Source of the DNA: Haloarchaeobius iranensis
Lineage (GTDB): Archaea; Halobacteriota; Halobacteria; Halobacteriales; Natrialbaceae
NCBI RefSeq assembly: GCF_900103505.1
Contig: NZ_FNIA01000001.1
Coordinates: 186,001 to 250,000, forward strand
Direction of reading: 5' to 3'
Length of the DNA: 64,000 bases
The stretch's first letter is position 1, and every line of letters begins with the position of its first letter. The notes under the pieces are model-generated. The model worked only from the letters and a program-made list of their open reading frames with translations, was not told the DNA's origin and searched no databases. Below, in pieces: positions 16,860-20,452 of this stretch. The translations under genes and the position numbers were made by a program.

Positions 16860-18968
16860 ATGTACCGACGGGTGACGCTCATCTCGATTCTTCTCATCTC
16901 GCTCGCCGCCGTCCCCGCCGCGACGCCGGTGTCGGACCCCTCGGACCGTGCGTCCATGCAGGCACCGGGGTCGGCGTCGGACGCCCTCTCGACGGCCGGA
17001 CCGGCCCACGCGGCGGGCCAGCAGTCCGTCCCGACGATCACGCGGACGCTCACGCTGCACCTGACGCCGGACACCGCCGGCGAGATACGGGCGGTGGTCA
17101 GCTTCGACATCCCCGACGAGGTGACCGAGCTGCGGCTGCAGCTCCAGTCCAACGCCGATGTCCAGTCGACCGAGCACTTCGAGCGCGACGGCGACGGGGA
17201 GTACGCCTGGACCGGCGAGGGTACCGGCGGCACGGTGACGTTCACCTACGACGCCAACGAGACGGACGACAGCGGTGGCCGGGCGGCGCTCGCCGACGGC
17301 CTGGGTGCCGGAATCGACACGCAGGCGGCCCAGTACGCCTTCGCGGACACCGGCGACTGGGCGATCACGCGTGTCCCCGGCCTGGGCAGCTCGTGGCGCT
17401 GGCGAGGTGCGGACGACGTGAACCTCGAGAAGCACGTCGCGGTCGCCGGCGAGGGGACGACGGGCGGCTACATGGCCTACCTCGGGCCGATGACGACCTA
17501 CAGCGAGACGGTCGACGGCCAGGAGATCACGCTCGCGGTGCCCGACGCGGCGGCGATGCGCGAGTCGCCCGAGGCCGTGCTGGCGAGCCTGGCGAACGCG
17601 AGCGAGCAGCTCCGCGTGGGCCAGCGCGACGAGACCGCGCTCGTCATCGCCGCGCCGCAGGCCCTCGACTGGTCGTCCGCCGGTCTCCAGTACGGCGACA
17701 CGGACGCGTGGGTCGTCGCCGACGCGCGGCTCGACCGGGCGAACAACGTCTGGCTGCACGAGTACGTCCACACGAGACAGGAGTTCCGCACGAACCGGTC
17801 GGGGCAGTGGCTGACCGAGGCGACGGCGGACTACTACGCCGCGCTGCTCGCGTACGAACAGGGCCACATCGGCTTCGATGCGTTCCGCGAGAAGCTCGAA
17901 CGCGGGAGCGAGGACCCGCAGTCGACGGCGGTGCTCGCCGAGCCGGCGACGTGGAGCAACAGCGCGAACTACCTCAAGGGCTCGCTCGTCACGGGGGCCA
18001 TCGACCGTCGGCTCCGGGCCGCGACCGACGGCGCGACGTTCCAGCGGGTGTTCCGGCGGCTCAACGGTCAGGAGGCGCCCGTCGACAACGCCGACATCCT
18101 GGCGGCCGTCGAGGCGGCAGCGGGCGCGGACACGCGGTCGTACGCCGACCGGTACACGTCGGGCTCGGAGGTTCCGGACGCCTGGTCCCGGGACACGCAC
18201 GCCGAGCTGTTCGGACCGGTGGCCGCCTCGTTCGCGTACATGCTCGCCGAGGGCTCACCCGCGGTCGCGGGGCCGTACCGGAACACGACCGTCGGCAACT
18301 CACCGACGCTGGCGGCCGGCGAGACGCTGTCCGTGGCGGCCACCGTCGAGAACGTCGGCGGTGGCGTCGGCACGTACGAGACCCGGTTCGTCGTCGACGG
18401 CACGGTCGAGGCGACGGAGTCGGACGAGCTCGACCCCGGCGAGACGGCGACGGTCACGTTCGAGCGGACGTTCGACGAGGCCGGCACCTACGACGTTCGC
18501 GTCGCCAACCGCGAGCTGACCGTCACCGTGCGCGAGCCGGCGACCCCGCGGGTGACGAGCATCGAGGCCCCCGAGTCGGTCACGGTCGGCGAGCCGTTCA
18601 CCGTCCGGGCGACCGTCGACAACGAGGCGGCCTGGCCGGCCGCGGGCGAGGTCTCGCTGTCGCTCGACGGCGAGGAGAGCCGCACGGAGACGGTCCGACT
18701 ACCGCCCACGAGCAGACTCACCTACACCGGGACGGTGACCGTCGGCGAGACCGGCGACCACGTCGTCCGCGTCGGCGGCGAACAGGTGAGCGTCACCGCT
18801 GTCGAGGCGGAGACGACGGCCGGCGGACCCGGCACCGAGGACGGGAGCGCGGCCGGCAGCGACGATGGCGGTGCGGGCGGCTCCCTGCCGACGCCGGGGT
18901 TCGGTGTCACCGGTGCAGTGGCGGCGCTGGTCGGTCTACTCGCAGGGCTCGGGCTGCAGCGGCAGTAA
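16860..18968 (+). CDS. Secreted gluzincin-like metalloprotease with CARDB-like repeats and PGF-CTERM-like tail
   Basis: The 702-residue protein starts with a Sec-type signal peptide (about 1-22). A zinc-peptidase core follows: HEYVH at 300-304 is the HExxH site and WLTEATADYY (318-327) supplies the third ligand Glu320 in a gluzincin-like WLxExxAxY context. Two immunoglobulin-like CARDB-type domains (about 465-540 and 545-640, around NVGGGVGTYETRFVVDG) precede a Gly/Asp/Ser linker. The C-terminus, PTPGFG plus a hydrophobic helix and GLQRQ, looks like a PGF-CTERM signal for archaeosortase-dependent anchoring. Substrates are unknown. Confidence 0.8.
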   Translation: MYRRVTLISILLISLAAVPAATPVSDPSDRASMQAPGSASDALSTAGPAHAAGQQSVPTITRTLTLHLTPDTAGEIRAVVSFDIPDEVTELRLQLQSNADVQSTEHFERDGDGEYAWTGEGTGGTVTFTYDANETDDSGGRAALADGLGAGIDTQAAQYAFADTGDWAITRVPGLGSSWRWRGADDVNLEKHVAVAGEGTTGGYMAYLGPMTTYSETVDGQEITLAVPDAAAMRESPEAVLASLANASEQLRVGQRDETALVIAAPQALDWSSAGLQYGDTDAWVVADARLDRANNVWLHEYVHTRQEFRTNRSGQWLTEATADYYAALLAYEQGHIGFDAFREKLERGSEDPQSTAVLAEPATWSNSANYLKGSLVTGAIDRRLRAATDGATFQRVFRRLNGQEAPVDNADILAAVEAAAGADTRSYADRYTSGSEVPDAWSRDTHAELFGPVAASFAYMLAEGSPAVAGPYRNTTVGNSPTLAAGETLSVAATVENVGGGVGTYETRFVVDGTVEATESDELDPGETATVTFERTFDEAGTYDVRVANRELTVTVREPATPRVTSIEAPESVTVGEPFTVRATVDNEAAWPAAGEVSLSLDGEESRTETVRLPPTSRLTYTGTVTVGETGDHVVRVGGEQVSVTAVEAETTAGGPGTEDGSAAGSDDGGAGGSLPTPGFGVTGAVAALVGLLAGLGLQRQ

Positions 18969-18991: not shown

Positions 18992-19528
18992 CTACGCGAA
19001 CTCGACGGTCAGCTCGCAGTGCCCGTCGCCGTCGTGCATACACGCGCTCTCGGAGATGGTGACCTCCTCGTCGAACTCGTCGGCGATGCCCTCGATGATG
19101 CCCTTCGCGAGGTGGCAGAGCCGGCGCTCGGACTGGTACTGGACGACGTACGTGTCCGCCGCGATGCGGTCCGTCGAGACGGTCGGGAACGCGGCGTCGT
19201 CGTCGCCGGTCTCGATCTGTCGGTAGATCTCTTCGAGGTTGGCGACGACCTCCTTCGTGCCCCAACCGCTCTTGACGTGTGCCTTGAACGTGTTGAGCAG
19301 CTCCGGCGCGAGGTACGTTCCGACGTTGCGCTGGACGACCGGCTCCGCGGTCCCCGTCTGTTCGGCGACGACCGCGATGGCGTCGGTGAACTCCTCGTCC
19401 GGATATCGCGACACCGGGAGGTAGAGTTTCGGCTCGATGCCCGCCGCTTCCAGTACCTCGTCCCAGGTCGTCCCCGGCACGTGCTCCCCGACGAACCCCT
19501 TGAGTGATTTGTGTAGTATCCCGTGCAT
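18992..19528 (-). CDS. H-NOX-like (heme NO-binding, HNOB) protein with Tyr at the proximal ligand position
   Basis: The 178-residue protein matches the H-NOX domain from its first residues (MHGILHKSLKGFV). It carries the heme-propionate motif YxSxR as Tyr131-Gln-Ser133-Glu-Arg135, at the same numbers as in characterised bacterial H-NOX. The proximal histidine (position 102 in those proteins) falls in LEEIYRQI and is Tyr102 here. Cys138, Cys163 and Cys171 with nearby His165/His170 resemble the zinc/redox site of some bacterial H-NOX proteins. A GTG two codons upstream is an alternative start. No cyclase or kinase gene is adjacent. Confidence 0.8.
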   Translation of the reverse strand: MHGILHKSLKGFVGEHVPGTTWDEVLEAAGIEPKLYLPVSRYPDEEFTDAIAVVAEQTGTAEPVVQRNVGTYLAPELLNTFKAHVKSGWGTKEVVANLEEIYRQIETGDDDAAFPTVSTDRIAADTYVVQYQSERRLCHLAKGIIEGIADEFDEEVTISESACMHDGDGHCELTVEFA

Positions 19529-19597
19529 GGCCACACCGCCGCCCCTTGCGAGGCTACGTACTGTAGGAACGCTACGAGGTATAAAGAATCCGTGTTT

Positions 19598-20452
19598 TTA
19601 TTCCGACAATTCTCTCGCGACAACCGGTGCCACGGAGACGGCGCTGACGGGGCGTTCGAGCGTGTCGGTGCCGTAGACGGCCTCGACGCCGGTGCGGGCG
19701 AGCTTCGTCGGCGCGTTCCGCGCGAGCAGCGGGTGGACCGTCGTGACGTACACGCGCGCCGCGTCGCGGTCGTTCAGCACGCCGATGGACTCGCTCATCG
19801 TCGAGCCGGTGGCGACGATGTCGTCGACGACGACGACGTCCCGGCCGGCCACGCCGGCGTCGCTCGGGCTGACCTCGACCTCGGAGCCCGAGTGGCGGAC
19901 CTTCTCGAAGTAGTCCGTCTCGCCGCGGCCGTAGGCGTCCCGAACGGCCTCGGCGAGGTCGCAGGCCCCCTCGTCCGGCGCGAGGAAGAGCGGCTCGGCC
20001 AGGTCCTCGGGGAGCGGTTCGGCGAGCCGTGGCGCGGCGTCGAGCGCGACCGCCGGCGGGTCGAAGAACTCGCAGACGCCCGCCTCGTGCGGGTTGACCG
20101 TGAGCACGCGGTCCGCGCCGGTCGAGATGGCCCGCGCGACGGCCCGCGAGGAGACCGGCTCGCCGGGGTTGAACGCCTCGTCCTGGCGCGCGTAGCCCAT
20201 GTACGGCAGGACGGTGACGACCTCGCCTGCACCGGCCTCGCGGGCGGCGTCCTGGAGCTGGAGCAGTTCGACGAACGCGTCGCTCGTGACCGTCGAGGCG
20301 ACCACGATGGCGCGCTCCGGCGCGGTGTCGCCGATGCGGACGAGCAGCTCCCCGTCGGGGAACCGCTCGTACTCGACGGGCGCGAGGGGCTCGCCGAGTT
20401 CGGCCGCAAGTTCGGCCGCCAGGGACTGGGAGGCCGAGCCTGGGAGTATCAT
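19598..20452 (-). CDS. prs: Ribose-phosphate pyrophosphokinase
   Basis: Prs makes PRPP from ribose 5-phosphate and ATP, supplying histidine, purine and pyrimidine synthesis. The 284-residue protein, from ATG 20452 (MILPGSASQSLAAELAAELG), matches archaeal class III-like enzymes in length. It has the flexible loop/ATP region YMGYARQDEAFNPGEP, the ribose-binding NPHEAGVCEFFD and the PRPP loop VVVVDDIVATGSTM. The frame extends 24 codons upstream but without similarity. A weak TATA-like TAATT lies about 25 bp before the start. Confidence 0.94.
   Translation of the reverse strand: MILPGSASQSLAAELAAELGEPLAPVEYERFPDGELLVRIGDTAPERAIVVASTVTSDAFVELLQLQDAAREAGAGEVVTVLPYMGYARQDEAFNPGEPVSSRAVARAISTGADRVLTVNPHEAGVCEFFDPPAVALDAAPRLAEPLPEDLAEPLFLAPDEGACDLAEAVRDAYGRGETDYFEKVRHSGSEVEVSPSDAGVAGRDVVVVDDIVATGSTMSESIGVLNDRDAARVYVTTVHPLLARNAPTKLARTGVEAVYGTDTLERPVSAVSVAPVVARELSE

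Follow-up and report, generated by a model that had tools for sequence, protein, structure and literature searches.

A haloarchaeal H-NOX-fold protein without the proximal histidine and the conserved His-less clade to which it belongs

An HNOB gene downstream of prs and the fold of its product

The window analysed here, a 64,000-nucleotide stretch of the Haloarchaeobius iranensis genome (contig NZ_FNIA01000001.1, positions 186,001 to 250,000), carries an HNOB gene that lies between prs and a convergent peptidase-like gene. The features of the locus are:

18992..19528, minus strand: HNOB/H-NOX gene lacking the proximal His, 178 aa (translation, Pfam HNOB and V4R, PDB phmmer search, AlphaFold, Foldseek)
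19598..20452, minus strand: prs, which encodes ribose-phosphate pyrophosphokinase and immediately precedes the HNOB gene in the same orientation (Pfam Pribosyltran_N, 3.6e-25); context gene
16860..18968, plus strand: metallopeptidase-like gene whose product has the zinc-peptidase motif HEYVH and a CARDB domain and is probably secreted; convergent with the HNOB gene; conserved context
19580..19585, minus strand: TTTATA, which probably serves the HNOB gene as an archaeal TATA box, recognised from its sequence and found in a similar place in five members of the genus

The reading frame of the HNOB gene starts with the ATG at 19528 (MHGILH) and is uninterrupted in translation; a GTG in the same frame precedes this ATG by 6 nt. 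The protein matched HNOB (PF07700) at 91.5 bits (cut-off 25.5, E 7e-26) over profile positions 1-162 of 163, and V4R (PF02830) at 42.8 bits (cut-off 31) over residues 121-176, overlapping the C-terminal half of the HNOB match; a weak match of residues 132-174 to MetOD1 fell below the cut-off. The best PDB match in a phmmer search was Shewanella H-NOX (6e-14, and 5e-31 with a family profile). An AlphaFold model computed with 98 relatives reached a pLDDT of 95.1 and a pTM of 0.91, and its top Foldseek matches were the H-NOX proteins of Shewanella, Thermoanaerobacter and Nostoc (TM 0.85-0.92), the best solved match being S. oneidensis H-NOX (4u9b, TM 0.91 over 179 columns); PDB 4iae was also among the matches. 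The window protein is a true H-NOX-fold relative of the nitric-oxide-sensing H-NOX proteins, without their proximal histidine, and the domain match, conservation and dN/dS exclude an antisense or spurious reading frame. It is encoded by the only HNOB gene of the 3.77-Mb source genome, and a close relative, from Haloarchaeobius sp. FL176, is 97% identical.

No HnoK, other partner kinase or cyclase was found beside the window gene, whose neighbours are prs and the peptidase-like gene. The latter encodes 702 residues, matched no Pfam peptidase model and keeps its place beside prs throughout the family. Since TTTATA occurs in the gap between prs and the HNOB gene here and in close relatives, the HNOB gene may have its own promoter. 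Inverted repeats lie between the TATA-like box and the ATG both in the window (gap 19529-19597) and in five relatives, with GTGGC..GCCAC in several of these and CGCTGC..GCAGCG in one, and form a candidate operator or leader hairpin; a search of the gap gave no Rfam match.

A His-less clade within the haloarchaeal HNOB family

Relatives were gathered by a PF07700 search of whole genomes; a single-protein contig scan gave only one close relative. HNOB genes were present in 85 of 394 sampled genomes of the class and in 81 of 125 genomes of the family, and the final set comprised 115 distinct near-full-length haloarchaeal sequences. The proximal position holds His in 44 of these and another residue in 71. 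Two codons of the window gene bear on this position:

19223..19225, minus strand: Tyr102, which occupies the place of the proximal heme His (pairwise and profile alignments)
19277..19279, minus strand: His84, present in 94% of the His-less clade and 73% of the His-type proteins (column table)

Translation confirmed every residue placed by the first-pass annotation, namely Y102 in LEEIYRQI, Y131-x-S133-x-R135, C138, C163, H165, H170, C171 and H84. The substitution that it had proposed, a Tyr in place of the proximal His, is borne out: Tyr102 aligns with His103 of S. oneidensis H-NOX in pairwise and profile alignments, with one gap nearby. A check of its conservation among haloarchaeal homologues found Tyr in 40 of the 71 His-less proteins, which indicates neither a sequencing error nor chance, and Ala, Thr, Val, Arg, Leu, Ser or Ile in the other 31. 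The same column is His in every non-haloarchaeal sequence that we fetched, comprising plasmid-borne bacterial H-NOX proteins and the other archaeal H-NOX proteins of the phylum that cover it, and the proximal His has been described as absolutely conserved in 598 H-NOX homologues (PMC7108781). This hallmark of a heme gas sensor is found in none of the 71 clade members. His84, which had been named as a histidine that might occupy the proximal position instead, fails in that role at the level of sequence, because it coexists with the proximal His in the His-type proteins and so is unlikely to be that ligand relocated; with residue 102 placed on Shewanella His103 by the profile alignments, we rejected a misalignment on the same grounds. 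Literature searches found no described Tyr-substituted H-NOX, and within the library of papers searched none mentioned both H-NOX and haloarchaea.

In a tree built with the proximal column removed, the 71 His-less proteins formed one side of a branch with an SH-aLRT support of 100; the tree was built quickly and includes two long outgroups, so that the split between His and His-less forms is robust but the inner order is less secure. The clade spans 21 genera in two families. Its basal branches, including that of the window protein, all carry Tyr, so the clade probably began with Tyr, which has since given way to other residues several times. The His-less gene is the sole HNOB gene in 45 of 71 genomes, and 45 of the 82 genomes with intact genes have no other form, so we rejected an obligate sGC-like heterodimer with a His-type paralogue as a general rule. 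The H-NOX proteins of non-haloarchaeal members of the same phylum (L121-L127) have the proximal His, lack the three-cysteine (Cys3) site described below and score higher against PF07700 than any haloarchaeal protein.

The His-type haloarchaeal proteins form the sister group of the clade; they share 28-40% identity, the Cys3 site and His2 with the window protein, but they differ in that the proximal His is invariant, helix alpha-F is conserved and 34 of the 44 genes adjoin an MCP-type (chemotaxis) transducer cluster. Of six cluster members scanned, five had Pfam matches to MCPsignal, with one of these scoring just under the curated cut-off. At three loci, His-type genes occur in tandem pairs followed by an MCP-like transducer gene. 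The His-less genes have a different setting: for 68 of the 71, prs is found upstream in the same orientation at a distance of 66-536 bp, an arrangement seen for no His-type gene, whereas prs is not near the His-less gene at two loci. In six genomes of the same family without an HNOB gene, prs still adjoins the convergent peptidase-like gene, and the block of an HVO_0234-like gene, prs and the peptidase is syntenic even in several HNOB-less genomes. The prs block is a stable site from which the HNOB gene can be absent, and adjacency by itself therefore argues only weakly that the gene is functionally connected with PRPP synthesis. Three further loci hold truncated, split or damaged HNOB remnants; one remnant still lies next to prs, suggesting that the gene was lost recently.

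Constraint on the pocket and the cysteine site

The residues of the clamp, of the putative zinc site and of the His pair on helix alpha-A map to the following codons:

19511..19525, minus strand: H2-x3-H6, helix alpha-A (column table, entropy)
19124..19138, minus strand: Y131-x-S133-x-R135, heme-propionate or carboxylate clamp
19115..19117, minus strand: Cys138, predicted zinc ligand, with the same number as Cys138 of Caulobacter H-NOX (PMC12329717); conserved
19049..19051, minus strand: Glu160, predicted fourth zinc ligand, aligned with Caulobacter His160 and S. oneidensis His161 and, by spacing, with DmpR Glu172
19040..19042, minus strand: Cys163, predicted zinc ligand (conservation, Caulobacter comparison)
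19016..19018, minus strand: Cys171, predicted zinc ligand (conservation, Caulobacter comparison)

The YxSxR motif reported earlier at residues 131-135 stands, and [YF]x[ST]x[RK] occurs in 67 of the 71 His-less proteins. Within the clade, Y131 is conserved at 97%, S or T133 at 99%, R135 at 93%, D44 at 97% and P115, the heme-distorting proximal Pro of H-NOX sensors, at 97%, and the hinge glycines G70 and G143 are at 100%, being invariant in the His-type proteins too. His2 is invariant in the haloarchaeal HNOB family (100% in the His-less clade), His6 reaches 96% where the His-type has Leu or Phe, and Arg67 reaches 93% versus 13%; H2-x3-H6 together with His84 is a possible candidate for a new metal or ligand site. 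Relative to the His-type, weighted column entropy rose by 0.93 bits in the proximal helix alpha-F, against a mean of +0.04 over the protein, a rise reached by about 1% of windows of the same length, and it changed by -0.21 in alpha-A and -0.50 in alpha-E, indicating tighter constraint there in the His-less clade. Clear loss of constraint is confined to alpha-F. Among close His-less pairs dN/dS was 0.14-0.37, well under 1 in each pair tested, and the pattern of kept, lost and gained residues with this low dN/dS is that of a changed function, not plain decay. The clade is old, widespread and still under selection, and this suggests that a sensor domain has been re-purposed away from classical iron-based gas sensing.

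All three cysteines, Cys138, Cys163 and Cys171, are kept in the window protein and in 59 of the 71 His-less members. In Caulobacter H-NOX the zinc ligands are Cys138, His160, Cys163 and Cys171, and the protein is activated by oxidation of its zinc cysteines, not by NO (PMC12329717); the fourth ligand of Shewanella H-NOX is His161 (PMC7108781). The phenol sensor DmpR, a V4R protein, binds zinc through Cys-Glu-Cys-Cys, the Glu being Glu172 (PMC7264223), with a spacing close to that of C138, E160, C163 and C171. From this Glu ligand and the shared Caulobacter numbering, we predict C138, E160, C163 and C171 as the zinc ligands of the window protein. The zinc or redox site of the first-pass annotation is thus upheld in its cysteines, which match a known site of this kind, and revised in its histidine: His165 and His170, conserved in only 23% and 15% of the clade, find no support as ligands, and position 160 is preferred. 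That position is Glu in the window protein and in 41 of the 44 Cys3-bearing His-type proteins, and Lys in 25 of the 59 Cys3-bearing His-less members, where the zinc site may differ and it is doubtful that the same one forms. Seven His-less proteins have lost most of the zinc cysteines and carry Pro at position 138, with YxSxR kept. The Cys-poor sub-branch, drawn mostly from one genus, is still selected (dN/dS 0.19 in the pair L062 and L078).

The H-NOX proteins of Vibrio cholerae, Caulobacter and Shewanella share the fold, YxSxR, Pro115 and the hinge glycines with the window protein, and the numbering of Cys138, Cys163 and Cys171 is identical in Caulobacter. In contrast to the window clade, with its Tyr, aliphatic or other residue, they bind heme through the proximal His; their fourth zinc-ligand position is His or Gln, as opposed to Glu or Lys, and an HnoK gene is not adjacent here. 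Oxidation-driven, heme-independent activation has been demonstrated in vitro for the Vibrio and Caulobacter proteins (PMC7108781, PMC12329717), and in the Vibrio model the hinge glycines are proposed to transmit cysteine oxidation (PMC7108781). The H-NOX domain of the sGC alpha subunit is likewise non-heme-binding alongside heme-binding homologues (PMC6839917), but it is eukaryotic and fused to PAS, coiled-coil and cyclase parts, whereas the window protein is archaeal and single-domain. The V4R domains of the phenol sensors DmpR, MopR and PoxR and of MsvR, in which the cysteines form a redox switch in archaea, namely methanogens (PMC3729527), resemble the C-terminal half of the window protein but occur in fusions with DNA-binding or AAA+ parts. 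MetOD1, the methanogen output domain, has an HNOB-like fold with three cysteines (PMC5847659), but it is a module of two-component proteins.

A proposed heme-iron-independent sensor and its alternatives

With a probability of about one half, we read the window protein as a heme-iron-independent H-NOX, probably a sensor of zinc/thiol redox state or of a ligand, comparable to heme-free Vibrio or Caulobacter H-NOX. On this reading, a His-to-Tyr change at the base of the haloarchaeal clade would have removed the proximal His, and Tyr would then have been swapped several times for residues unable to bind iron, leaving no axial heme ligation, while the two-lobed fold, the hinge glycines and the V4R-type Cys3 site were retained. 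Zinc would be held by the three cysteines and Glu160, and disulfide formation upon oxidation of the cysteines, or a different ligand bound in the pocket that was kept, would rotate the distal against the proximal lobe and so alter binding to a partner. The earlier suggestion that the domain senses something other than NO gains from the missing proximal His and the match of the cysteines to a known zinc/redox site, which make non-iron sensing possible. The main weakness of the reading is the sub-branch that is selected without cysteines, so that zinc/redox sensing does not extend to the whole clade. In addition, the retained carboxylate clamp and Pro115 suggest a binder of carboxylate-bearing molecules, possibly of heme.

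That last observation leads to an alternative that we regard as possible but unlikely, in which the pocket would receive some carboxylate ligand that is not iron-ligated heme, be it a tetrapyrrole without a proximal ligand, heme held on the distal His6 or His2, or a non-tetrapyrrole carboxylate. Retention of Y131, S/T133, R135, Pro115 and His2 despite the lost iron ligand favours it, as do the new and nearly fixed His6, the high conservation of His84 and Arg67 and the tighter alpha-A and alpha-E. R135, however, may owe its retention to a structural salt bridge with the conserved D44, as known from H-NOX structures, and not to a ligand; the facing of position 6 into the pocket is putative, and no ligand candidate has genomic support. 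In heme-free H-NOX, position 2, the Y-S-R residues and R116 hold the two carboxylates of heme mimics (PMC6225106); PDB 4iae is among the structural matches. In its fullest form, which we consider doubtful, an ancient haloarchaeal lineage would have kept the clamp (His2, Tyr131, Ser/Thr133, Arg135) and Pro115, dropped the iron ligand and gained His6, which is specific to the clade, along with His84 and Arg67; the pocket would thereby bind a tetrapyrrole or other carboxylate in a novel manner, possibly with distal His ligation or metal-free.

It is improbable, in our view, that Tyr102 ligates ferric heme in the Tyr members, giving a heme sensor of altered chemistry with little or no ferrous-NO-type response, although Tyr is fixed in all basal branches and YxSxR, Pro115 and position 2 are retained. 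In yeast Sfh5 the heme is ligated by Tyr. Sfh5 offers precedent for an unusually ligated heme protein derived from a non-heme paralogue (PMC7462610). Of the pair once offered for this protein, tyrosinate ligation or lack of heme, it is the former that is weakened by close relatives with Ala, Thr, Val or Arg at position 102. Because the residues of the 31 non-Tyr relatives are unfit as the usual iron ligand, a function shared by the clade cannot rest on tyrosinate-heme; no compensating residue appears in the helix (His occurs at 90-112 in only 7), the flanks of Tyr102 are variable, and the helix offers no conserved His or Arg as hydrogen-bond partner. Moreover, human sGC beta1 loses heme binding when its proximal His is replaced, in H105A (PMC5322342). 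A role as regulator or partner of PRPP synthase, binding Prs and tuning it to redox state, is very unlikely: the linkage to prs is nearly constant and exclusive to His-less genes, but with the block syntenic in HNOB-less genomes it may reflect nothing more than vertical inheritance, a separate TATA-like box is often present in the gap, and the two unlinked loci also count against it. Decay to a pseudo-sensor that keeps some residual role in structure is highly improbable, since the loss of His and then, in some branches, of Cys, the three damaged remnants and the clean absence from other genomes are set against low dN/dS in all pairs tested, persistence over 21 genera and the gain of clade-specific conserved residues.

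Taken together, a large clade under selection now stands without the proximal His that had been reported as absolutely conserved among H-NOX proteins (PMC7108781). It constitutes a natural experiment that sets apart two roles proposed for the domain, heme-gas sensing and zinc/thiol (or ligand) sensing, and in which the phenotype of a His-less gene cannot stem from Fe-His chemistry. The clade is therefore clean material for asking whether heme-independent signalling, which the Vibrio and Caulobacter proteins have so far shown in vitro, is a genuine biological function.
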